Part shown: positions 5,550 through 17,217 of the stretch, piece by piece
Position numbering within the stretch: the first letter of the stretch is position 1
How the letters are laid out: every line of letters starts with the position of its first letter
Assembly: GCA_027577415.1 (NCBI GenBank)
Contig: JANBQS010000471.1
Span: forward strand, 1-17,217
Reading direction: 5' to 3'
Source of the DNA: Coemansia sp. RSA 922
Taxonomy: Eukaryota > Kickxellomycota > Kickxellomycetes > Kickxellales > Kickxellaceae
DNA length: 17,217 nucleotides
Translations under genes and position numbers: made by a program
Notes under the pieces: model-generated
Database searches by the model: none
Seen by the model: the letters and a program-made list of their open reading frames with translations, nothing else
Told to the model about the DNA's origin: nothing

Positions 5550-6610
5550 CTACTTGCTCGCATCTACAGCAGTTATCATGTCGTCAATGTCGCGAGTGAT
5601 CTTTGCCGATTCCTGTGAAGTAAGCCCATGTCCAGCTCCCTCGTAGATCTTGAATATGACGTGGTCACGACCCAGCTTGTCAGCCAGGTACACGGAGTTG
5701 CTGGTGCGCACGAGATGGTCCTCATCGCCAGTAATAATAAGAATCTGCTTGTCTGGCAGCATACGGCCCAGATGCTCCAGCCTAGCAGGCGCAATGTAAT
5801 GGCGGAACACGGTACCGATCTGACCTACAAATGACCAAAGGGACATGGGGCGCGAGTACTGAGACTTTCTGATTGCATTCTTTGTGCAGTACTCCAGCAT
5901 ATTCTTGCACCCAGAGTTTTCGGGAGCCGGCGACTTTAAGTACTCTTGGGTGTAGATTGTGCCGCAAATGCTCTCGAAGCGCTTTACTGGGTCGTTGGTA
6001 AAGTTGGAGGTGACTGTGTCCATGATTCCACGCATGGGCGGGAAGGTCAGACCGGCATTGGTCACAGCCAAAGTCAGTGTCTTGACCATGGTCGTGTACA
6101 GGCTGGCAAACTCTAGGGCGACCATTCCGCCCATGCTTGCGCCGACAATGTTGGCACGCGTCCATCCGATGGCTGTCATGAGCCGCTTGAGATCGGTGGC
6201 CATTGTCGAGCTCGTGAACGACGCTATGCCACTGCCGGAGCCTGAAAAACCGGTCCCGCGGTTGTCGTACACCAGGCACTGGTATCTCTCGAGCTTGAGG
6301 AACTCGCTGACGTTGGGCTCCCACATTTGACGATCAGCGCCCATGCCTAAGAGGCTCACAAAAACTGGTATGTATGTTAGTGGCATTCATTGCACCTTGT
6401 ATGTAGGGTGGACACAGTAGACTGCTTACCGTTTATAAAGACTACCAGCTCGGAGCCGGTGCCATAGAGCTCGTAGTAGATCTCTAGCGGGGTGGCCGCC
6501 TTGCCTTCACCGTCGCTAATAGTTACATGTCCGCGCTTTGTTAGTTGCTCCCAGATAGGACTGTCGCCAGCCTCGCCGGGCATGGTTGTGTCGATAGAAG
6601 TCAAGTTCAT
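5550..6610 (-). CDS. Alpha/beta hydrolase fold protein (two exons)
   Basis: Exons 6610-6430 and 6364-5550 flank an intron with donor GTAAGC, a CTAAC branch site and acceptor CCAG; product 331 residues. Both exons share the same domain: strand ELVVFIN, then GMGADRQMWEP (oxyanion-hole loop region), YDNRGTGFSG (the conserved DxRG turn), nucleophile elbow GASMGG with Ser137, acid loop ITGDEDHLV with likely Asp276, and GAGHG with His306. A full catalytic triad is therefore present and the length is usual for the family. Such proteins hydrolyse esters, peptides or epoxides, or are lipases; the substrate is not predictable here. No signal peptide or membrane segment is visible. I chose ATG 6610 because the frame further upstream has no ATG, only a TTG. 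It diverges from the Ssr4-like gene over 240 bp. Confidence 0.88.
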
Positions 6611-6850: not shown

Positions 6851-7801
6851 ATGAGCGGACCACAACAGACACCCACTCGCTACCCGCCGAATCAGCAGTA
6901 CACTCCGCGTCCCGGGATGCCTGGGCAAATGCCCATGGGCACACCTACACCACAGCAGCGACCTGGCATGATGCAGTACCGCCCAGGCATGCAAATGACT
7001 CCACAGCAGCAACAACAACTATACATGTCAGCGAATCGGGGCATGCCGGTTGGAAACATGACTCCACAAATGCAAGCACAGTATAATCAGCAACTCCAAC
7101 AGCAGTACATGCACCAGCAGCAGATAAACGGACAGATGCGGCCCAGCATGGGTGGCATGCCAGCCACCGGAGCAGGGATGCGTCCAGGTGCACCTCAACA
7201 GCAGCAGTATATGTATGCTGGGAATTCGGGAATGGCGGCCGCTGGCGTCGCTATGCATGGACAGCAACCACACCCGGCACTGATTCAGCCGCCTACGCCT
7301 ACTCAGGCCGGACGCAAGCGTAAGGGCAAAACTGCCAACGATACTACACCGGGTATACTCGATGACGGAGCTGGTTCTGGTGACGAACTGGATAACTTGC
7401 AGCCATACAGTATATCGCTTGCTCGCTATCAGAACAACCACAACCTAATGTCTGAGATATTTGTTGCGCTGCCTACGAGCACAATCAGTTTGCCAAAGCA
7501 CTATTACGAGAATTTGGAGGAGAGCGTGGTCGCCGGTGAGCTAGACAAGCTTAACTCGTCGATTGAGCAGTGTGGAGAGGAGCATGAGAGCCGGATGCAA
7601 GACATTAAGAAGAGCCGGGACGGATTTGCTGAGATGATTGGGACCCTTGTTAATGCCAAGTATGAGGACGTGGACAAGATTAAAAAGGACCTCGAGTCGC
7701 AGTTTGACATGGAGTTTGTTAACAGCCCTTACCGTACTGTCGAGCGTGTTGCAATCGACAAAATCCAGCCAGTGGAGAACGCCGTTTATAAGCAGCTCTA
7801 A
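6851..7801 (+). CDS. Q/M/P-rich protein with Ssr4-like C-terminal domain (putative SWI/SNF-RSC subunit)
   Basis: A 316-residue single-exon gene starting at an ATG in A-rich context (CAAAAAATGAG). Residues 1-150 are low-complexity Gln/Met/Pro/Gly, with many MPG, GMP and QQQ runs, typical of transcription coactivators. A basic patch RKRKGK (about 155-160) may be a nuclear signal. From about residue 180, LDNLQPYSISLARYQNNHNL and MSEIF resemble the start of the Ssr4 C-terminal domain of fungal SWI/SNF and RSC complexes (I recall family members with the pattern ISLTRYKxHHEWMEEI). The rest is charged and helical, with a probable coiled coil at about 220-280. The separate N-terminal Ssr4 domain is not evident. 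Assignment rests on remembered motif similarity, so it is tentative; an unrelated coactivator is the alternative. It converges on array gene G1, 86 bp between stops. Confidence 0.6.
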   Translation: MSGPQQTPTRYPPNQQYTPRPGMPGQMPMGTPTPQQRPGMMQYRPGMQMTPQQQQQLYMSANRGMPVGNMTPQMQAQYNQQLQQQYMHQQQINGQMRPSMGGMPATGAGMRPGAPQQQQYMYAGNSGMAAAGVAMHGQQPHPALIQPPTPTQAGRKRKGKTANDTTPGILDDGAGSGDELDNLQPYSISLARYQNNHNLMSEIFVALPTSTISLPKHYYENLEESVVAGELDKLNSSIEQCGEEHESRMQDIKKSRDGFAEMIGTLVNAKYEDVDKIKKDLESQFDMEFVNSPYRTVERVAIDKIQPVENAVYKQL

Positions 7802-7887: not shown

Positions 7888-8199
7888 CTAGAGATTCTTT
7901 TCCTCCTTTTCGAGCTGGTAGCCTATTTCTTCAGCAATAGTCCTGTCGTTCTTTGGTATAATACCAACCACCTCTGGTTTGACACCAATGGTGTCTTTGT
8001 TGAGCTGATCATACTCAGTGCCGGTATAAATCACAAAGACACGGTCGGTAAATAAACATATTTTTTCTACTAGTTTCTCGGACAGGATAACCTCTTCAAT
8101 GTATTGCTCAACTATGTATACTATGCATTTGGTGAATTTGGTCAACTTGACATAAACTGCTAGGTCAGCCACTTTATTGAACATTCTTAGGGTATGCAT
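7888..8199 (-). CDS. Array gene G1, small paralogue of unrecognised family
   Basis: 103 residues, the shortest member. The frame is open to an ATG at 8229, but I place the start at 8199: MHTLRMFNKVADL then aligns residue for residue with the starts of G2 and G3, Cys falls at residue 25 as in all members, and the TATA box lies 131 nt upstream, close to the 123-126 nt of the others. Visible parts: an N-terminal helix (1-20), a strand after Cys25 (CIVYIV), a second helix (38-48), a strand VFVIYTGTEY at 54-63 carrying the family motif, then a short charged tail EKEEKNL. It lacks the long C-terminal half of G4 and G5. No signal peptide or membrane segment. An AATAAA at 7864-7859 could be its polyadenylation signal. 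Function unknown. Confidence 0.65.
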   Translation of the reverse strand: MHTLRMFNKVADLAVYVKLTKFTKCIVYIVEQYIEEVILSEKLVEKICLFTDRVFVIYTGTEYDQLNKDTIGVKPEVVGIIPKNDRTIAEEIGYQLEKEEKNL

Positions 8200-8336
8200 G
8201 GCGTTAAAGCTATTAAGTGTTGTTGTCAAATTCTCTTTTTAAATAATGTATGGAGAGAGAGAAAAAATAAAAATAAAAAGTGGAGAATGTTTTTAAAAAA
8301 AGGAAGGAGGGCGCCCACTCTACCAGGCGTTTTATA
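8200..8336 (-). promoter_or_regulatory. G1 promoter and 5' leader (TATA, GC-rich element, pyrimidine tract)
   Basis: Read on the minus strand, TTCTTATAAAAC (TATA box at 8336-8330) is followed by GTGGGCGCCC, then a T- and CT-rich leader (TTCCTTTTTTT, TTTTTTCTCTCTCTCC). The same order occurs before G2 to G5. The TATA-to-ATG distance is 131 nt for the ATG at 8199. Confidence 0.6.
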
Positions 8337-8340
8337 AGAA

Positions 8341-8880
8341 ATGTTTTAGGCAAGGTTGGCATGCCCGCTTTTTTAAAAATAAATCTGTCGCTTTAATGCA
8401 CAACATTAGGGAGAGGTATAGTTTGAAGCAGGTGATTTCCCTTTTGGCCAAAGAATTTATTACGCGTGACGCTTGATTGCGACAAAATCACAGGTTCAAT
8501 GATTGCAAAGTGGACAAACACACGCTCTTCTGCTTTCTGAAACAAGGACCAATCTTCTTTTTGTGTTCATTATTTCTAGAGTAGAAAAGGTTGCAGTCGG
8601 TATAGCTCTTGAGGGGGTTGTTCAAACATGTTGGGAGTGCAAAATAAATAATAAGTTTTCAGAGATTTTATTTATCGGTGAAGAAACAACTGAAACAGTG
8701 CCAGAGCACTGCCTTCTTATGCATCCTTGCCGTTCACAAAATAAACTAAAAACACTAAAAACACCATCATCTGCCAATGCTTTCTCTCTTTATTCTGTAC
8801 TACACATTATTGTGAGCTGGCCCATACAAAGGTTCTTGCTCCACTCGCTGTATGTTGGGCTTATCGCCATCAATGGGCTC
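8341..8880. other. G2-G1 spacer
   Basis: 540 bp, shorter than the other spacers of the array. It lacks an obvious copy of the conserved spacer block. On the minus strand the G2 frame stays open for 26 codons after its TAG (8880-8803) before a second TAG at 8802-8800, followed at once by AATAAA (8794-8789), a likely polyadenylation signal of G2. An open frame on the plus strand here is antisense to G2 and not convincing. Confidence 0.5.
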
Positions 8881-9246
8881 CTAGTCGTCACATCCATTTC
8901 TCAATTCCGAAAGGCTTGGCCATTTATTATTTATATTCAACAATGTATGGAATATACGAAGTTCTTCCGAGATTTCATCCGAGACCTCGCTTGGAGTTGT
9001 GGAGTAAATATCTGTCACATTATAGCTCTCGCCTAACTGGGAATAATCACCATCAGTGTCGGTGCAGAGAGCAAAAAACCAACCTCCCTGGCTTTCAGAT
9101 AGGTTATGCAGTTTATCACTCAATTTAACATGAGGAATGTTTTCAACTTTGTTGCGCATAGCAAATATAGTGCAATTTTTTGAGTTGAGCTCCGCTACAC
9201 GAGCCTGGATATCAGCAAGCTTCGAAAACTTTTGTAGGTTGCTCAT
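8881..9246 (-). CDS. Array gene G2, small paralogue of unrecognised family
   Basis: 121 residues, single exon. The N-terminus MSNLQKFSKLADIQARV is a helix like that of its paralogues; Cys25 begins the strand CTIFAM; helix about 41-50; strand WFFAL at 56-60 leads to CTDTDGDY at 61-68, a divergent form of the family motif (YTGSED in G4 and G5). The segment after about residue 90 does not match the other members, and the protein stops 36-44 residues earlier than G4 and G5. After the TAG the frame continues for 26 protein-like codons (8880-8803), so the ancestral end may have been longer. Hydrophilic, without signal peptide. Its 5' leader is nearly identical to that of G4 although the proteins are much less similar. 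Function unknown. Confidence 0.65.
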   Translation of the reverse strand: MSNLQKFSKLADIQARVAELNSKNCTIFAMRNKVENIPHVKLSDKLHNLSESQGGWFFALCTDTDGDYSQLGESYNVTDIYSTTPSEVSDEISEELRIFHTLLNINNKWPSLSELRNGCDD

Positions 9247-9376
9247 TATTCAGTTTCTCAGGCGTGCGTTGGTTCTTGTGCTTGAATAAAAGGCAAAGTG
9301 GGTAAGGTGAGAAGAAGCAAATGTATGGTTAAGATAATTGTGTAAAGTGGATGACCATACTAGCTCACGTTTTATA
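9247..9376 (-). promoter_or_regulatory. G2 promoter and 5' leader
   Basis: Minus strand: TATAAAA at 9376-9370, 124 nt before the ATG; then a pyrimidine-rich leader containing CTTCTTCTCACCTTACCCAC and TCAAGCACAAGAAC. About 95 bp next to the ATG match the G4 leader with only a few mismatches. The GC-rich GGCGCC/GGCCGCC element of the other copies is replaced by GGTCATCCAC. Confidence 0.65.
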
Positions 9377-9487
9377 GCAAAATCTAATGGCTAAGCAGAG
9401 GCTTCACAACTCCCAACCCAAGCAATGCCGAAAACCAAGCAAACACTCGCTTCTAATGATGTCACCATACTTTCTAAGAAGTGCCAG

Positions 9488-10157
9488 GCAAGAAAACAAC
9501 CACCTTCTCTAATTGTTGCATCACACTACGCAAACATTCACTCACTGCTATTAGCCAAGAAGCGCCAAACCTGTGTCTTTGATGGCTAATGGATTGAAGC
9601 ATCCTTTCTCCCTTATTTTTGGGGGTGACGAAAACCGCAGTTGGAGTAGCCAATGATGTAATTGAAGCTCATGTTGACACACACAGTAATTTTTTAAAGA
9701 ACAAATTCTTTGCACTTTCAAAGAGGCTGTTGGTGAACAAAACATTTTCTTTTTTCTTTACACTCGACCATGCCCGCCCACTTCCAATGACATTATTTTA
9801 CAAAGACGAAAAAGCTTTCCTTTTAACAGCTTTTGGGGGGAGGTGGGCAAAAGCGTGCTGCGGACACAGAGAATGCAAGGTTTAGACACAAGCCAGCAGC
9901 AAAGTATGGTGGGTAATACATACAACAATCTACGAACAACTATACCTCAAATACTCGTTTTAGTAACATCAGCATGTTTTGACAACTAATTTGGACGCAA
10001 GCTAACTAACCGCCTAAAATAGAAGGTCATAGCAAAACATCTATTGGTCCCACACCACACTGAATTGTGCAGCACACTATTGAGCGAGCATTGCATGTGT
10101 CAGTATTTGCTGTGCTCAATAGCACATGACATTTACTCACTTGAATTACTCCTGCTC
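9488..10157. repeat. Array spacer repeat, copy 1 (between G3 and G2)
   Basis: About 670 bp that align colinearly with 11620-12296 at an offset of about 2139 bp, and more loosely with 13555-14440. Shared landmarks include TTGTTGCATCACACTACGC, the ACTCGACCATGCCCGCCCAC segment and GGACGCAAGCTAACTAACCG. The left two thirds differ by many substitutions and small indels; 9950-10128 matches copy 2 with one mismatch that I can see. No convincing coding sequence. Confidence 0.85.
10077..10122. other. Inverted repeat in spacer copy 1
   Basis: CTATTGAGC (10077-10085) and GCTCAATAG (10114-10122) form a perfect 9-bp inverted repeat with a 28-nt loop. The same structure is retained in copy 2. It could be a hairpin or a protein site; chance is not excluded. 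Confidence 0.45.
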
Positions 10158-10950
10158 TGTTGGATAGTATTTATTTTATCGGCCTGTTCCATCCATTTAC
10201 GGGACGCCATCCAATGGATTAGCTGATTGGAATTAGTAGTGATGCTAGACAACGTAGCGTTTATAAGTATGCACAACGACACACAAGCTGTTGAATTGTT
10301 TCTCTAGTTGGCTTAATTCTGGTTTTACTTTGACTCTTTATTATAAACATCTAATTTTTACTATCTAATAGTCTGGGTATATGATATATAACTAGGCAAT
10401 TACCTTATCAAGAGAAAGGCTGGAAAATGTAGCATGGTCTTTGACATATAGATCTACTCAGAGTATTAACTTTAATGTAGTTAGTTAATTGTGTTGTTAT
10501 TTTATTAGCATTAAATAAACGCGTAAAACCATTTGATATGTTGTCTAATCACTAACAAGCTGTGGGTGTCCGACCACCAGCCCTGCTAACGGCCAGAGCT
10601 ATGGTCGGGTTTAGCCAGGAGTACAAAAAGAGAGGCGGCGCCTTGTTATATTTAAAAATTCTTATAAAAACTAAATGTATTTTCAGGCCTGAAAAGGGCA
10701 TAACCCACTGGTCGTTAGCGTCTAGCTAACCTACCAAATACCATCCATGAGGAGTACTATACAGACCTTGTCAACAGGAGGTTGGAGCAGTGTCAGAAGG
10801 TCGTCGATGCTGGTGGGCAGTGCGTTTAAAACGTGCTTCTACTTTAGGAATAAATCTATTGAACCAGATTTGTAAATCTACTTGTAGTTAACTAAAGAAA
10901 GCTATACATCCACATATATGGTTGGCTCTGAGGGCAATGAACAACCCGTC
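10158..10950. other. Region downstream of G3: AT-rich with a GC-richer relic
   Basis: About 790 bp without a recognisable intact gene. 10158-10550 is AT-rich. 10555-10660 is GC-richer and holds a 7-bp inverted repeat (CCGACCA at 10570, TGGTCGG at 10602). 10723-10830 looks like eroded coding sequence: on the minus strand a short frame reads IDDLLTLLQPPVDKVCIVLL, similar in layout to residues 10-29 of the array proteins, while the plus strand also reads a short open segment ending near 10830. Neither is intact. Confidence 0.35.
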
Positions 10951-11319
10951 TTATGCGAAATATTGACCTTGGTTTCTTGGTGGAAGTCTTTTACTTTCCT
11001 CGTAATATTTAACTGTCTTAGTAATATCTTCTTTTACTAAATCAGCATACGATTCGGCATACGTATGGCTAAAGTACTCCAAGTGAAGCTTGATATCGTA
11101 ATCCCCATTAGCAAGGTCATGATATTCCACTCCAGAATATATAACGAGACATAATTTCATTTGGTCCCTAAGCTGACTATCAAGGCTCTCCTCCAAATCA
11201 ACTTTTAGAGATTTTGCCCCTTGCCTTGGATTTATATATACTATGCAGTTATTGCAATTATTTTGTTTTGCATAATCTATAATCGGTTCTATCTCTTTGA
11301 ACACTTTTATCTCAATCAT
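10951..11319 (-). CDS. Array gene G3, small paralogue of unrecognised family
   Basis: 122 residues, single exon. MIEIKVFKEIEPIIDYAK forms the N-terminal helix; Cys25 starts the strand CIVYIN; a second helix spans about 42-54 (LEESLDSQLRDQM); strand LCLVI at 56-60 leads to YSGVEY at 61-66, the family motif in exact register with G4 and G5. A third strand/helix segment follows (YADLVKEDITKTVKYYEESK), comparable to TYYEDPAAIYKIIRNRL in G5. The end is a short polar tail (PPRNQGQYFA). The TATA box is 123 nt upstream. No signal peptide or transmembrane helix; a small intracellular alpha/beta protein is the likely form. Flanked on both sides by the duplicated spacers. Function unknown. Confidence 0.68.
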   Translation of the reverse strand: MIEIKVFKEIEPIIDYAKQNNCNNCIVYINPRQGAKSLKVDLEESLDSQLRDQMKLCLVIYSGVEYHDLANGDYDIKLHLEYFSHTYAESYADLVKEDITKTVKYYEESKRLPPRNQGQYFA

Positions 11320-11448
11320 TGGAAATCACTTGTTTTAATTCCTTAAACCTGACTGTAAAGATATGTGGATAAGGAAGAGAATAACTGGAAATATGTTAGG
11401 GTGAAGAAGAAAAAAAAAGTGGGCGCCAGGATTTTCTCTTCTTTTATA
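11320..11448 (-). promoter_or_regulatory. G3 promoter and 5' leader
   Basis: Minus strand: GCTATAAAAG (TATA at 11448-11442, 123 nt before ATG), then CTGGCGCCCAC followed by a long T/CT tract, the order seen before G1, G4 and G5. The leader sequence near the ATG differs from the G2/G4 type. Confidence 0.6.
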
Positions 11449-11619
11449 GCATAGGCGGCGAGGGAAAAATGGTGGGAATATTTCCACACTTTCGATGTAG
11501 GGAGTAGAAAAAATGGGGAAAGTGGGGTGTTGAACACTTCTACAGTTGAATTTTCTTTTTTCGCTTTTACGGAAAAACTTGTTTTCTTCTACCTTAAGCC
11601 TTTTTGCCCCAGGAGCACA

Positions 11620-12296
11620 AAGCAAGAAAACAACCATTTTTTGTTGTTGTAATTGTTGCATCACATTACGCAAACATTCACTCACTGCTATTAGCCAAGA
11701 AGCGCCAAAACTGTGTCTTTAATGGCTAATGGATTGATGTCTCCTTTTCCCCCTTATTTTTGAAGATGACGAAAACCGCAATTGGGGTTTCTAATGATGT
11801 AATGACAGCTCATGTTGACACACACAGTATTTTTCAAAGAACAAAGCCTTTGCACTTTCAATGAAGCTGTTGGTGAACAAAGCATTTTACTTTCTTTTTT
11901 ACACTCGACCATGCCCGCCCACTTTCAATGACATCATTTTACAAAGACTAAAAAGCTTTCTTTTAGCAGCTTTAGAATGGGGTGGACAAAAGCGCGCTGT
12001 GGATTCTGAGAAAGAAAGGTTCAAACACAAGCTAACAGCAAAGTACAGTGGGTAATAAATAAAACAATCTACGAGCGATTATACCTCTAATACTCGTTTT
12101 AGTAACATCAGCATGTTTTAACAACTAATTTGGACGCAAGCTAACTAACCGCCTAAAATAGAAGGTCATAGCAAAACATCTATTGGTCCCACACCACACT
12201 GAATTGTGCAGCACACTATTGAGCGAGCATTGCATGTGTCAGTATTTGCTGTGCTCAATAGCACATGCCATTCACTCCCTTGAATTACTCCTGCTC
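11620..12296. repeat. Array spacer repeat, copy 2 (between G4 and G3)
   Basis: Colinear copy of 9488-10157. It begins at AGCAAGAAAACAACCA and ends at CTCCTGCTC. 12089-12267 matches 9950-10128 with one visible mismatch (A for G near the left end), whereas the flanks on both sides carry many differences. 11449-11619 to its left, upstream of the G3 TATA, is not clearly shared with copy 1. Confidence 0.85.
12216..12261. other. Inverted repeat in spacer copy 2
   Basis: Same 9-bp arms as in copy 1: CTATTGAGC (12216-12224) and GCTCAATAG (12253-12261), same 28-nt loop length and sequence. Confidence 0.45.
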
Positions 12297-12827
12297 CTAC
12301 TCTGTATTTTTAACTACCAGTGGAAGTTGGATTCTCATGGATTTGGAGGTATCCCTCAGCAGTTTTGGATGTCTAAATGTTGACCTCTAACCTTGCAACC
12401 CTTCCATCTCGCATGGCAGGTCAGGCTATTTGTTGGCTCAGTGTTAACCACTAAGCTGGAACTATCCAATAGTCAAAAATGTTAAGGTTCCTGTCATTCA
12501 GGAATTACTTACAGACTTGCTCTCTAATCCTTCACAAGTAAACACATTGTAGTATGTATGCTAGTTTATTAGTGTAAACATAGTATCTAGAGTACTAGTT
12601 GGCTAGGTATAAGTGATAAATGTAACTTAGCAATCCCTGATTATTAAACTGTGCTTCAGAATAGGTGGCCTGTTGTTTATCTGCCTTGCCCAACTTGTTG
12701 CTCATTTGATTTGATCTCTTCCATCAGCGACTGCCCACTGTCCAATTCACCATTGTCTGCATAACAGCTAATGATGTCCTATCAGACTTTTCTTTTTCAC
12801 TTTAACCTCTATCGCAACTCTGCTCAT
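12297..12827. other. Region downstream of G4, possible second G4 exon
   Basis: About 530 bp. 12300-12400 resembles 14440-14540 loosely, so the repeat unit extends here. On the minus strand, 12767-12677 is a 91-nt segment with protein-like content (CYADNGELDSGQSLMEEIK and on to TAA) that would join G4 in frame if an intron GTAAAT...TTAG (12831-12768) is removed. Otherwise no gene is seen. Confidence 0.35.
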
Positions 12828-13325
12828 TTACATTTGGGGCATGCATGCCAAGAACTGAGCATCAGGAAGGATATTAGGCAATTCCTTTGCTAATTGTACA
12901 AAATTACCTGAGTTAATTTGCAACCTACTATCCACTATATCATTCTCTAAAACATCGTAAATATAACCAAGCCTATTTACAAGGATATTGAATATAGTAT
13001 CCGGATCTTCAAAGTAAGTTTTGGTGACTATTCTCACATGTGGGATATCCAAATCGTGGACACCAGGATTGTCTAAATGACAGATGTGGCTAACTATATA
13101 ATTATTATTACTAGCTAGAGAGTCGATGTCTTCTGAGCCCGTATAGAGAGCAAGAAAACAACCATTCTCGCTTAAGGACAACCTCTGTAGCTCTCTAGGC
13201 AATTCTAATGGAGGAATGTCAGCAGTGCTCTCATGCATGACAAATATTATGCATTTACTTGATTTAAAGATTTTTACACTACTCGCAATGTCATCAAACT
13301 TATCAAATACTCAAAGGTAAGTCAT
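12828..13325 (-). pseudogene. Array gene G4, paralogue with in-frame TGA at codon 5
   Basis: Read from the ATG at 13325, the frame is MTYL, TGA (13313-13311), then VFDKFDDIASS and onward without another stop for 160 codons. The part before and after the TGA aligns without a gap to G2 (MSNL-Q-KFSKLADI), the ATG lies 125 nt from its TATA box, Cys is at codon 25 (CIIFVM) and the motif YTGSED at codons 61-66, so the TGA looks like a point nonsense mutation. The only later in-frame Met is codon 30 (13238), which would remove helix 1 and Cys25. The C-terminal half is close to G5 (TYFEDPDTIFNILVNRLGYI against TYYEDPAAIYKIIRNRLVYI). It ends at TAA 12828, or continues into a second exon at 12767-12677. 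It may be a recent pseudogene, a truncated functional form, or subject to readthrough. Confidence 0.65.
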
Positions 13326-13456
13326 TTTTCGGTTTCTCGGGCGTGCGTTTGTTCTTGTGCTTGAATAGAAGGCAAAGTGGGTAAGGTGAGAAGAAGCAAA
13401 TGTATGGTGAAGATAAGAGTGAAAAAAGTGGGCGGCCACCCTAGCCCATGTTTATA
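13326..13456 (-). promoter_or_regulatory. G4 promoter and 5' leader
   Basis: Minus strand: TTCTTATAAAC (TATA at 13456-13450, 125 nt before the ATG at 13325), then GGTGGCCGCCCAC, a T-rich stretch, and a pyrimidine-rich leader almost identical to that of G2 over the last ~95 bp (CTTCTTCTCACCTTACCCAC and GCACAAGAACAAACGCACGC). Confidence 0.65.
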
Positions 13457-13554
13457 AGAAAATTCAATAGAGATGCAGAGGCATTCCCACCCCCAAGCGA
13501 GCTTGAAAGAAGAGCATGTTGTTGCTTCAAACGGCAAATCTCCATGCTTTCAAA

Positions 13555-14440
13555 GGAGCGCAAAGCAGGCAAACAACCCACTTTTCTTGTGTTTTCGTCT
13601 GGCCACGCGAAATTTCGCTTGCTGCCATTGGCAGAGAGGCTCAAGACTTGTGCTTCAGACGGGAAAAGGGTTGAAGCTTCCTTTTGGGCTAATTTAGGGA
13701 GAATAAAAACCGCAGTTGGAGTAGCAAAAACAGGCATGCCAGCACATTTTGGCATTCACGTAGCAATTTTCAAAGCAGCAAGTCTCCGTGTTTTCAAAGA
13801 AACAGTTGGCCATCAAAGATTTTTTTCTCCTTTCAGCCTCCCCTCCACTTACTGCCATTGGTTGAGAAGTGCTAGACTTGCACTTTTGACAGGCAAAGAA
13901 CCAAAGTCACCCTTTCACTGCTCTCGAGGTAGGGAAACAACAGGCAAAAATGGCAAAAAAGTGACAAGGCAATTCGTGTTGACACACCCATTTTCGAAGA
14001 ACCAAGTCTCCATGCCCACCCACTTCCAAGGGCATCGACTTTCCCCCACATTTTTCAAAGAAGCCAAGCTTTTTTTAAATTGATTTTGGGCGGGGGCAAA
14101 CCTGCTGTGCACGCAAAAGAGGCAAGGCTTAAGCACAAGCAAACATTCGGCATGTTGTTTCTCAGACTAGCAAAAAAATGGCCATAGAAACAATTGTTCT
14201 TAAGGTGTTTAATAACAACAAGTAGAAAAATAGAAGCTAGAAACTACAAGTATACCTCCATACAGAGCACTATATGGCAATTTATTTCTTATTTTGCTAC
14301 AAACTTAAAAGTCAGCTAACTAGTTGCTAGGAAATGACAGGGCATAGCAGAGCTTCAAATGTGACAAAAACATAGTCTTTGTCAATATTCGATGTGCTCA
14401 ACCACAATATATATCACCCGTCCCCTTTGCTCCTAGTTCG
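13555..14440. repeat. Array spacer repeat, copy 3 (diverged; between G5 side and G4)
   Basis: Diverged and expanded relative of copies 1 and 2: AAAACCGCAGTTGGAGTAGC near 13708, CATGCCCACCCACTTCCAA near 14010, and GCTAACTAGTTGCTAGG near 14315 match their landmarks. It also contains internal degenerate repeats of about 140-200 bp built around CTCC(G/A)TG..TTTCAAAG and TGCCATTGG. A plus-strand frame happens to stay open across most of it (13448-14083), but its translation follows these DNA repeats and is broken in copies 1 and 2, so I do not call a gene. Confidence 0.7.
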
Positions 14441-14507
14441 CACTTTTCTCTAACAGCAGAAGTTGCTCTCTCACAAATCGGATAATATCATCAGTGGTTG
14501 TGGATTT
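14441..14507. other. Short tract between spacer copy 3 and the degraded array copy
   Basis: Resembles 12300-12370 loosely; nothing else seen. Together they suggest that the duplicated unit reaches into the 3' end of the preceding gene. Confidence 0.3.
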
Positions 14508-14775
14508 CTAGATGTCGACCACTGCCAATGTAGCTCTTGCATTTCCCAAATTGTCACAATAGTCTGCCGAGCCAGTATAGGGCACATAGTAGCAACTTGC
14601 CGATAGCAGCATGTTATATAGGCCATTATTTACACACTTAAAACACAGCCCATTATATGTAAATATAATGTTGTATGTTGGTAGAGTATATTGAAAAAGA
14701 ACTAGAGTGTTAGAGGGCTGGACACTAGCGGACTGTGCAGGCTTACGATCACCCTGGAAAATAATTGTATTCCGA
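14508..14775 (-). pseudogene. Degraded array copy directly downstream of G5
   Basis: The minus-strand frame ending at 14508 contains LLSASCYYVPYTGSADYCDN, which aligns with the motif region of G4 (LSLSENGCFLALYTGSED), and about 30 residues earlier a strand-like YNIIF in the place of CIIF. The beginning of a gene, a promoter with TATA and the C-terminal half are missing or scrambled, and upstream the frame runs into G5 out of phase. I read it as the remnant of a sixth family member or of an older 3' part of G5. The assignment rests on one motif and its spacing. Confidence 0.45.
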
Positions 14776-15249
14776 CTATAGTAGGATATTTGGCAAGTTT
14801 GCAGATAGCTGATTGAAATGGTCTGAGGTAATCTGCAATACTCCACCAGATAAAGCTGTCTCTAAAGTATAATGAATATATACAAGTCTGTTGCGAATGA
14901 TTTTGTAAATGGCAGCAGGGTCTTCATAGTAAGTTCTAAAGACTACATTTAATGATGTACCATTAAATGATGTACCTTCAAAACCACTCGACTCTTCATC
15001 ATTATAGCAAATATGACTTAAAATATACCTACCATCAACTAGATAACTAATATCCTCAGAGCCTGTATAAAGAGCAAAGAACCACTCATCTGCGAGTAAG
15101 ATATCTCCCTTCAGCTCTGTAGGAAACGGAATGGGAGCAATTTCGTCAGTATTTTCGTCCACGACAAATATTACACATAGCTTGGATTTGCTCACTTCTA
15201 CAATATGCTCAATTTGGGCAAATATCTTGGTTGTGTATATGCAGAACAT
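14776..15249 (-). CDS. Array gene G5, longest intact paralogue of unrecognised family
   Basis: 157 residues, single exon, the most complete intact member. N-terminal helix (MFCIYTTKIFAQIEHIVEV), Cys25 with strand CVIFVV, an acidic loop, strand WFFAL at 56-60 and motif YTGSEDI from residue 61, strand YILSHICY, a variable loop containing GTSFN-GTSLN, then strand VVFRTYYED, a helix IYKIIRNRLVYIHYTLE and a last helix ending LPNILL. The order suggests an alpha/beta fold of about 100 residues plus a helical extension, shared with G4 only. A 15-bp in-frame duplication lies in the variable loop. The start is supported by the TATA box 126 nt upstream and by the Cys25 register. No signal peptide is clear. 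Function unknown. Confidence 0.7.
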   Translation of the reverse strand: MFCIYTTKIFAQIEHIVEVSKSKLCVIFVVDENTDEIAPIPFPTELKGDILLADEWFFALYTGSEDISYLVDGRYILSHICYNDEESSGFEGTSFNGTSLNVVFRTYYEDPAAIYKIIRNRLVYIHYTLETALSGGVLQITSDHFNQLSANLPNILL

Positions 15250-15383
15250 TATTTGTTACTTGGATATGTACTGTTACTAGAATAAAACGCAAAAGTTGGA
15301 AATAGGAGAATTAGTTAGAGCAAGGTAAGGAGAAGTGCAAAAAAAAAATGAAAAAGGGCGGCCAACCCCCTACCTTGTATAAG
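15250..15383 (-). promoter_or_regulatory. G5 promoter and 5' leader
   Basis: Minus strand: TTCTTATACAAG (variant TATA, 15382-15375, 126 nt before ATG), then GGTTGGCCGCCC and a T-rich tract, then a CT-rich leader. The TATA box differs from the other copies (TATACAA instead of TATAAAA/C). Confidence 0.55.
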
Positions 15384-15823: not shown

Positions 15824-17217
15824 ATGGCCAATACAGCCATATCGCCTGCGGTGATGCGGGGAGTGCTGGAGCAGCTACCAGCCATGTCAGGCAAAATAGT
15901 CGACGACACGCGGCACGAGAAGGTCCTCTCCTACATGCGTCTCTTTCTCGAGTCACCAACATGCATTGAACAGCTTCTGGAATGGAAGCTACTGGATATG
16001 GTGGAAAGCTGTCTTCAGCTCAACAGCGACTATCGGGTATCGTCGGTCGCTATTAGGTTTCTCGGCGACTGTCTAGCGGTCCCCCAACAAGGCAGAGATG
16101 CGTGGCTAGCCATTAACCACAGAGACCAGTGTATTTTGCGTTGGGTAATAGAGAACGTAGACAGCCAGCATGCGTTGGTACGCTTTGCCTGTCTGTATTT
16201 TATCCGCCAAGCAGCAGTGATGGCTGATGAGCGCTTTGATGGGTTGGTAATGGCTGTTGACTACCAGAGGTTTATTTTGCGGCGACTGCTTGATTCAAGC
16301 TATTTTGTGGTGACCGAGGCGTGTGCATTGTTAGGGTCGATGTTCTACCGCAGCGGATCAATGGACTCAGTACTGTGTGGGCTCGTGGAGAGGCTTGTTG
16401 GCAGGCGGTTTGACGCGCAGTCTACGCCTCACAAGATGGCGGTACTGGCGACTGCAGTGGTACTATTTGCTATTCCAGAGGAGCCCGTGCGCACTTATGC
16501 GCTGGAGCAGTTCTCGCAGACTCGGTTGGAGATGTACTTGTTTGACGATGACCGACTTATTCGCGACAAAGCGCTGGACATATTGGAGCTTACACTGCGA
16601 TTGTCAAGTGATAGCGCATGTTTGGCGCAAGTAGTCGAGTCGCTTGGATCCAGACTGTCACAGCGTACTGTCAAGCGCAAAGTGTACGCATTGGTGGCGT
16701 TGCGAGGTTTGGCTGCAATCGTCAAGGAAGTCCCAGCTAATTCGGCCCCTTGTAGCCCCGAGGCTCTGTCGCAGTGTCTTGGTATTGTGCACTCGGCGTT
16801 GGCCATTCTGTTGCATGTATATGGTATTCGGCACCAAGTACCCGAGTCGGCTGGCACCTCGGAGGCATTGGCTGCTATTGAGATGGAGGTTCTCGATTTA
16901 ATGGACGGGCCGCAGCCCGGATCTAGCGCTATTGCCAACTCCGTTGCGTGCGAGGCGGCACGAGTTGTGCGTGAGTACTGCCGCACTACATTTGACCAGC
17001 GCGTTTTTGCGGTATTGGAGCAGCTATTGGAGAACAAGGCAGTTCAGCGTAATGCCCAGCAGCTACAGCTTGTCCTAGACGCTATCATTCACTGTTTGCG
17101 CCTGGCTAAGCAGGCTAGTTTTAGCCATTTGCTGGTGCTGCCCAGTATTGTGGCGAATTTTGCTATCCAGGCGCCGGGACTAAAACTGCTCTTTGACTTG
17201 GTGCTCGAAAGCATTAG
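15824..17217 (+). CDS. Helical (HEAT/ARM) repeat protein resembling BRAT1, 5' part, open at right edge
   Basis: From ATG 15824 the frame stays open to the window end (464 codons, no stop, no intron needed). The protein is almost entirely amphipathic helices with regular Leu/Ala/Val spacing, such as VSSVAIRFLGDCLAV, HALVRFACLYFIRQAAVM, YFVVTEACALLGSMF and RLIRDKALDILELTLRL: helix pairs like those of HEAT or armadillo repeats. The N-terminus (VDDTRHEKVLSYM, a short gap, then a Leu-rich helix) resembles in layout the start of animal BRAT1, a scaffold linked to ATM and Integrator functions, which I recall with a DDTxxEKLLDW motif. The similarity is by memory of one motif and overall architecture, so other HEAT scaffolds remain possible. 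No signal peptide. It diverges from G5 and marks the right border of the array with GC-richer codon use. Confidence 0.6.
   Translation, partial: MANTAISPAVMRGVLEQLPAMSGKIVDDTRHEKVLSYMRLFLESPTCIEQLLEWKLLDMVESCLQLNSDYRVSSVAIRFLGDCLAVPQQGRDAWLAINHRDQCILRWVIENVDSQHALVRFACLYFIRQAAVMADERFDGLVMAVDYQRFILRRLLDSSYFVVTEACALLGSMFYRSGSMDSVLCGLVERLVGRRFDAQSTPHKMAVLATAVVLFAIPEEPVRTYALEQFSQTRLEMYLFDDDRLIRDKALDILELTLRLSSDSACLAQVVESLGSRLSQRTVKRKVYALVALRGLAAIVKEVPANSAPCSPEALSQCLGIVHSALAILLHVYGIRHQVPESAGTSEALAAIEMEVLDLMDGPQPGSSAIANSVACEAARVVREYCRTTFDQRVFAVLEQLLENKAVQRNAQQLQLVLDAIIHCLRLAKQASFSHLLVLPSIVANFAIQAPGLKLLFDLVLESI

Follow-up and report, generated by a model that had tools for sequence, protein, structure and literature searches.

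The array of small genes on the minus strand of contig C471 of Coemansia sp. RSA 922 (hereafter the window, the whole contig of 17,217 bases, from a genome of 20.4 Mb in 960 contigs) was found to comprise five members, G1 to G5, of one real gene family, whose promoter layout recurs in front of small open reading frames (ORFs) elsewhere in the genome. Taken as one joint claim, the reading favored here is that the family encodes cytosolic conflict or recognition proteins that are dispersed in the genome, co-expressed and kept diverse; it is put forward tentatively, its probability falling somewhat short of even.

To test family membership, the subfamily of each gene was in turn left out of the profile, in nine runs with 4,600 shuffled decoys. 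The left-out window genes scored 39.3 to 84.4 bits, whereas no decoy exceeded 12.8 bits in any run. With these leave-out hidden Markov models (HMMs), 43.9 bits were obtained for G1 (7888..8199; 103 residues, the shortest of the five), 56.4 for G2 (8881..9246; 121 residues), 39.3 for G3 (10951..11319; 122 residues) and 63.1 for G5 (14776..15249; 157 residues, with a longer C-terminus). G4 (12828..13325) starts as MTYL followed by an in-frame TGA at codon 5; its codons 6 to 165 are open and scored 84.4 bits after the stop. Five minus-strand genes had been listed in the preliminary description, four of which are intact as it stated (G1, G2, G3 and G5), while G4 is broken. The cysteine at residue 25 and the [YC][TS][GD] motif at residue 61 (58 in G1) that it had pointed out were present in all five, G4 being counted across its stop. 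Its view that the genes hardly match outside these points was too strong, as pairwise identity over the aligned length was 18 to 43% among the ten pairs and similarity spanned the whole domain of about 100 residues. The general picture of a head-to-tail array of a strongly diverged, unrecognized fungal family with birth and death of copies was upheld.

An iterated profile run over six-frame ORFs, with stretches taken from six contigs, gave 23 recognizable copies of at least 100 codons, plus relics on C168 and C471. Protein searches against the same genome (E up to 10) returned matches confined to C471, C599, C215, C168, C74 and C236; these counts are lower bounds, and L075 on C244, a possible further member, was missed. 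Cys25 was kept in 20 of the 23 copies, and is thus not invariant, while the tyrosine of the motif and the glycine two residues on were each kept in 21. Net charge was negative in every copy. The weakest left-out group (C168:6272, C74:38205 and C236:7070) is less securely placed, because it reached 14.3 to 18.1 bits against 9.1 for the best decoy of its own run.

No homologue was found among 5.8 billion proteins at E 1 or E 10 (profiles of 9, then of 22 members), in a database where the hydrolase encoded at 5553-6386 of the window, used as a yardstick, retrieved 122 proteins; among the 120 matches listed for it, the first 36 were named as proteins of Coemansia, Kickxella, Martensiomyces or Linderina. 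This does not imply that related species lack the family, because ORFs this small may have been passed over in annotation, and the unannotated DNA searched was that of this one genome. In Pfam searches with all five window ORFs and the 22 aligned members of the 23 copies, no match had an E-value better than 0.012 (those printed with a curated cut-off fell below it; matches of other members carried no printed cut-off), and a sequence search of the PDB returned no homologue of the family. No member was thus placed in a known family in Pfam, the PDB or the 5.8 billion proteins, in line with the preliminary description.

Structure prediction gave a small alpha/beta domain whose fold has no assignable match. 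An AlphaFold2 model of G1, with the five window members as alignment, reached a predicted local distance difference test (pLDDT) score of 83.9 and a predicted template modeling score of 0.76, with a strand at 4-7, a helix at 10-20, a strand at 24-30, a helix at 41-48, a strand at 53-58, a short helix at 68-71, a strand at 75-81 and a helix at 85-102. The G5 model was weaker (pLDDT 60.7) and showed the same order minus the short helix and plus one terminal helix; the two models thus agree in the order of strands and helices, although they share one five-sequence alignment and are not independent. In both, the N-terminus was modeled as the first core strand. The highest hydropathy over 19 residues was 1.68 among the 23 copies, 18 of which stayed below 1.4, so that by simple hydropathy none has a clear signal peptide, as had been described, with one borderline copy (C168:6272, at 1.68).

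Fold libraries gave no match above noise for the predicted models. A thioredoxin-like fold shares the order strand-helix-strand-helix-strand-strand-helix with the weak G5 model, and structural matches to thioredoxins and to b domains of protein disulfide isomerase were weak, none of them above noise. The CxxC, or a remnant of it, expected there at the end of strand 2 was not encountered among the cysteine positions listed (the first five per protein); in this family the conserved cysteine, residue 25, stands where strand 2 begins. Scores to small Rossmann-like domains (Csm6 and the SPOUT methyltransferase TrmD) were all at noise level, with no sequence match found. All four G3-type copies carried a CxxC at residues 22-25, directly before strand 2 (CNNC in G3 and C74:39755, CSNC in C168:7810, CKDC in C215:9059), which is a possible metal or redox site; C236:5891 carried CKKC at 23-26.

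The five window genes shared a promoter layout, with a TATA element 129 to 137 nucleotides (nt) before the ATG in all five and GCCC 16 to 18 nt later in four. On the minus strand, the TATA box of G1 (8331..8336) lies 137 nt before the ATG and is followed by GCCC after 18 nt; that of G2 (9371..9376) lies at 130 nt, with CATCCAC instead of GCCC at the usual place. Those of G3 (11443..11448; 129 nt) and G4 (13451..13456; 131 nt) are followed by GCCCACTTTT after 18 nt and GCCCACTTTT after 17 nt, respectively, and the TATA-like element of G5 (TATACA, 15376..15381; 132 nt) by GCCC after 16 nt. TATAAA was present within 230 nt upstream in 18 of the 23 family copies. Genome-wide, the pattern TATAAA-N16-20-GCCC-N3-TTTT had 39 matches against 3 for a reversed-pattern control, and a second promoter pattern had 37 against 2, seven of them beyond those of the first.

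Eleven of the 39 matches fell within family arrays and 28 outside them (L058-L085). Among the latter, 26 preceded an ORF of at least 80 codons from the first ATG, located 84 to 184 nt after the TATA; the two exceptions, L075 and L080, are sequence partners of L073 and L069. Control TATAAA sites without GCCC on six contigs preceded such an ORF in 17 of 108 cases, in a set that still includes family members with a degenerate GCCC. In all-against-all phmmer comparisons L073 and L075 joined the family (E below 1e-3 within a set of 51 proteins), and the other 26 promoter-marked loci formed 12 further clusters (one of six, one of four, six of two and four single). By HMM, L073 reached 20.3 bits and L075 13.6, the latter under the best of 2,800 decoys (17.8). 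Nine representatives of the promoter-marked clusters had no Pfam match above cut-off. Because 26 of the 28 outside matches precede small ORFs, a class of small, single-exon, uncharacterized genes is marked by the promoter. Several matches occurred as near-identical pairs on two contigs. Small, fast-changing genes with a common promoter suggest a co-regulated and undescribed set of rapidly evolving proteins.

Promoter matches also recurred at 1.3-1.7 kb spacing at C10:23721-26780, C53:34615-35958 and C101:13889-15389, a sign that arrays of other small families may exist on these contigs.

A tandem DNA duplication was directly visible in the window, at 2.14 kb spacing. The distal upstream block of G3 (11622..12296, minus strand) was 89.2% identical over 678 columns to that of G2 (9488..10157, minus strand), despite only 18% identity between the two proteins. 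Conversion or recent spread of an upstream block between old paralogues would be the simplest account. Blocks related to that of G2, without its last 93 nt, matched family contigs only. A 93-nt stretch at 10157-10250 was found, whole or in part, at 85-95% identity on nine contigs outside the family, and is probably a short dispersed repeat.

Two pairs of contigs resembled divergent haplotypes. C215 (1-13640) and C599 (470-14867) aligned in segments bounded by contig ends, with outer segments 93-95% identical and inner segments beside the array 78-87% identical, C599 having about 3 kb extra; between the shared flanks, C215 held a G3-type and a G4-type copy and C599 a G2-type copy. C168 and C74 overlapped in a similar manner at 81-92% identity. 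Duplication is also a possible account of such contigs, because no second copy of the left flank of the window was found in the genome.

Signs of selection for change were found in the G3 subfamily. Between C74:39755 and C168:7810 the proteins were 63% identical, and nonsynonymous (dN 0.238) exceeded synonymous divergence (dS 0.101; ratio 2.36; Fisher p 0.018, uncorrected). Non-coding DNA of the same C168/C74 block was 94.3% identical, against 81.9% for the G3-type gene and 87.2% for the C168:6272 gene; nonsynonymous change in the G3-type pair stood above non-coding change (p 2e-17), and synonymous change did not differ from it (p 0.14). Coding identity between G3 and C215:9059 was 73.8%, against 87.9% for non-coding DNA (nonsynonymous versus non-coding, p 8e-9). 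For comparison, two ordinary genes between C215 and C599 had ratios of nonsynonymous to synonymous differences (pN/pS) of 0.20 and 0.32. These contrasts suggest diversifying selection in the G3 subfamily.

On the favored reading, the array would belong to a set of small cytosolic alpha/beta proteins of one domain each, which is spread over the genome and whose genes share a fixed core-promoter layout and are probably co-expressed from it. Birth and death of copies, together with the exchange of blocks upstream of the genes, would keep the set diverse, with selection favoring amino-acid replacement as a further cause in one subfamily or more. Individual proteins would be specificity variants, each binding a partner that stems from self, non-self or a parasite, in a role comparable, though not by descent, to that of small fungal incompatibility factors. 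We infer the cytosolic location because neither a signal nor a membrane segment is clearly present, and likewise infer expression, binding, and conflict as the cause of selection. Because arrays, broken copies, haplotype-like differences, the coding excess of the G3 type and the common promoter were observed together, molecular conflict would explain them best. The preliminary description had guessed at recognition or conflict genes; some evidence in its favor came from the G3 subfamily, with its signs of diversifying selection, and from the differing gene content of the two haplotype-like contigs.

Several observations weigh against this reading. Between G3 and C215:9059 synonymous change also exceeded non-coding change (p 2e-4), so that part of that contrast is not protein selection. 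The G5 subfamily behaved in the opposite way, with coding DNA 95.7% and surroundings 84.8% identical; so did G4 against C215 (coding 88.3%, outside 80.5%, with a badly matching 5' region). In 17 gene pairs, drawn from the family or marked by the promoter, the ratio of dN to dS ranged from 0.13 to 2.69, and although five were above 1, the other 12 lay between 0.13 and 0.88. Taken by itself, the comparison of nonsynonymous with synonymous change is modest, the p value of 0.018 being the sole one below 0.05 among the five pairs tested. Since only one of these five was significant and G5 is opposite, selection for change is supported for one subfamily and is not general. A third ordinary ORF shared by C215 and C599, for a small membrane-like protein, was itself only 90.8% identical and, being gapped, was left out of the pN/pS comparison. 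The non-coding divergence used as yardstick could have been lowered by homogenizing gene conversion. Finally, a scan of long single-frame ORFs, seven in the window and ten on the other array contigs, reported neither a HET or NLR domain nor another cell-death domain.

A wider form of the recognition reading is possible but distinctly less probable: that early-diverging fungi possess an intracellular repertoire for recognition or immunity, so far undescribed, which comprises about 13 clusters of small single-exon proteins and is defined by its promoter. Such clusters would have no detectable mutual similarity, several of them standing in arrays and divergent haplotypes, and their defining feature would be a TATA, 16-20 nt, GCCC with a T-tract, and an ATG 84-184 nt after the TATA.

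The strongest competing explanation, rather unlikely in our estimate, is that these are small, soluble, TATA-driven bulk proteins of a particular stage, such as sporangial development, that diverge mainly under weak sequence constraint. A fixed TATA layout common to many small ORFs without detected similarity, and a negative net charge throughout the family, would suit such proteins, and the 12 pairs with ratios below 1 are what relaxed constraint would give. However, relaxed constraint alone should not lift coding change above that of the surrounding non-coding DNA, or dN above dS, and retention of Cys25 and of the Y-x-G motif in 20 to 21 copies, together with the fold predicted for G1, argues against it.

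It is improbable that the proteins are unconventionally secreted weapons or effectors, directed at microbes, nematodes or competitors of the fungus in dung and soil. An arsenal of this kind would also account for the arrays, the fast change and the set defined by a promoter, but the hydropathy values gave no clear signal segment, C168:6272 being borderline, and the N-terminus is predicted to form the first strand of the core.

Selfish genes maintained by drive, such as spore killers or toxin-antidote pairs, are likewise an improbable explanation. In their favor are the tandem and broken copies, the differing content of haplotype-like contigs and the old paralogues whose upstream blocks are nearly identical, and the wtf genes of S. 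pombe resemble the present family in being tandem and fast evolving, with many broken copies and a shared promoter element. A meiotic driver is usually one family, though, whereas about 13 sequence clusters share the promoter here, and wtf proteins have several membrane segments, of which none was clear in this family by the hydropathy values above. An origin as viral or transposon remnant or cargo is very improbable: the AT-rich array stretch and the dispersed repeat adjoining the upstream block would fit, but no viral or mobile protein matched above Pfam cut-offs or among the 5.8 billion proteins, the viral fold library gave nothing above noise (best E 0.043), and the upstream block minus its last 93 nt is confined to family contigs.

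G1 to G5 occupy the stretch between ordinary genes on the left, which in a Pfam scan of seven window ORFs had an ING domain, ribosomal protein L10, an alpha/beta hydrolase and SSR4, and a single long ORF on the right (15827-17215) with no Pfam match above cut-off. The GC content of the array stretch was 0.37-0.43, against 0.44-0.57 for the remaining window. For the hydrolase (5553-6386), the best match listed, in Coemansia sp. S146, was 95% identical, and identity to a C. aciculifera protein was 94%. Arrays on the six contigs adjoined differing ordinary genes (SSR4, ArfGAP, cation ATPase, OGG1/MBOAT and peptidase M49). Intergenic DNA was also considered as RNA, and no Rfam match at gathering score was found within the window.

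Not all 23 copies were intact. The G4 lineage looks disabled, because the closest copy to G4 elsewhere, C215:10857-11288, also has a stop immediately before its open part, and neither has an intact start; G4 itself is probably a disabled copy. C74:36832 ended earlier than G2, and C74:34012 was split, with its C-terminal part at C74:35897. The stretch of about 1.6 kb that splits the latter (C74:34311-35897) contained a 264-codon ORF without Pfam match, and may be an intron or an insertion. A relic of a further member lay between G4 and G5 on the minus strand (about 14511..14669), with a domain match at an independent E-value of 3e-6 (0.022 with a trimmed profile); DNA of this region (14262-14626) matched C236 at 66%, the nearest part being C236 around 6880-7287. 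The ORF at C168:17957-18388, whose middle resembles the N-terminal part of the family and then diverges (E 1.8e-4; 0.006 in another profile run), is perhaps another relic. L061 and L084 aligned to the family in register (probability 40, E 3e-4), and are at most candidate members, because their HMM scores (8.6 and 14.4 bits) were below the best of the 2,800 decoys. Relationship of the group L063/L064/L077/L078 to the family was not supported.

A small ORF beside the C215/C599 array (L050:5588-5932 and L049:1304-1639) was 59% identical between the contigs, with pN/pS 0.77, while two ordinary neighbors were 95-97% identical in DNA. The ORF C215:5588-5932 looked like a family member by eye, which was not supported.

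Among the titles and opening lines of abstracts listed in literature searches, none described such genes in Kickxellomycotina, and the titles listed for incompatibility and Kickxellales dealt with other fungi or were those of general reviews. Genes that change at this rate can escape homology methods; here the promoter layout retrieves them, across clusters without detected similarity. Should the proteins serve recognition, they would be a starting point for understanding self/non-self discrimination or resistance to parasites in Zoopagomycota; should they be developmental, the promoter would be a ready marker for small genes that ordinary annotation may overlook.

Small proteins can act as determinants in such conflicts, and among known incompatibility systems het-B of Podospora anserina offers a comparison. 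Its Bp gene encodes a PII-like protein of 115-132 residues with divergent variants 62% identical, has one predicted intron and adjoins a HET-domain gene, and balancing selection was inferred for het-B haplotypes (PMC10890737). The likeness lies in a small protein with divergent variants, the 63% identity of C74:39755 and C168:7810 being close to the 62% of Bp. The difference lies in the arrays of single-exon ORFs found here, with no HET domain reported in the scanned neighbors, and no PII-like match was listed in the Pfam, PDB and library searches, a PII-like relationship being possible all the same. The likeness to Bp is offered as a hypothesis of similar role, not of membership in the same family.

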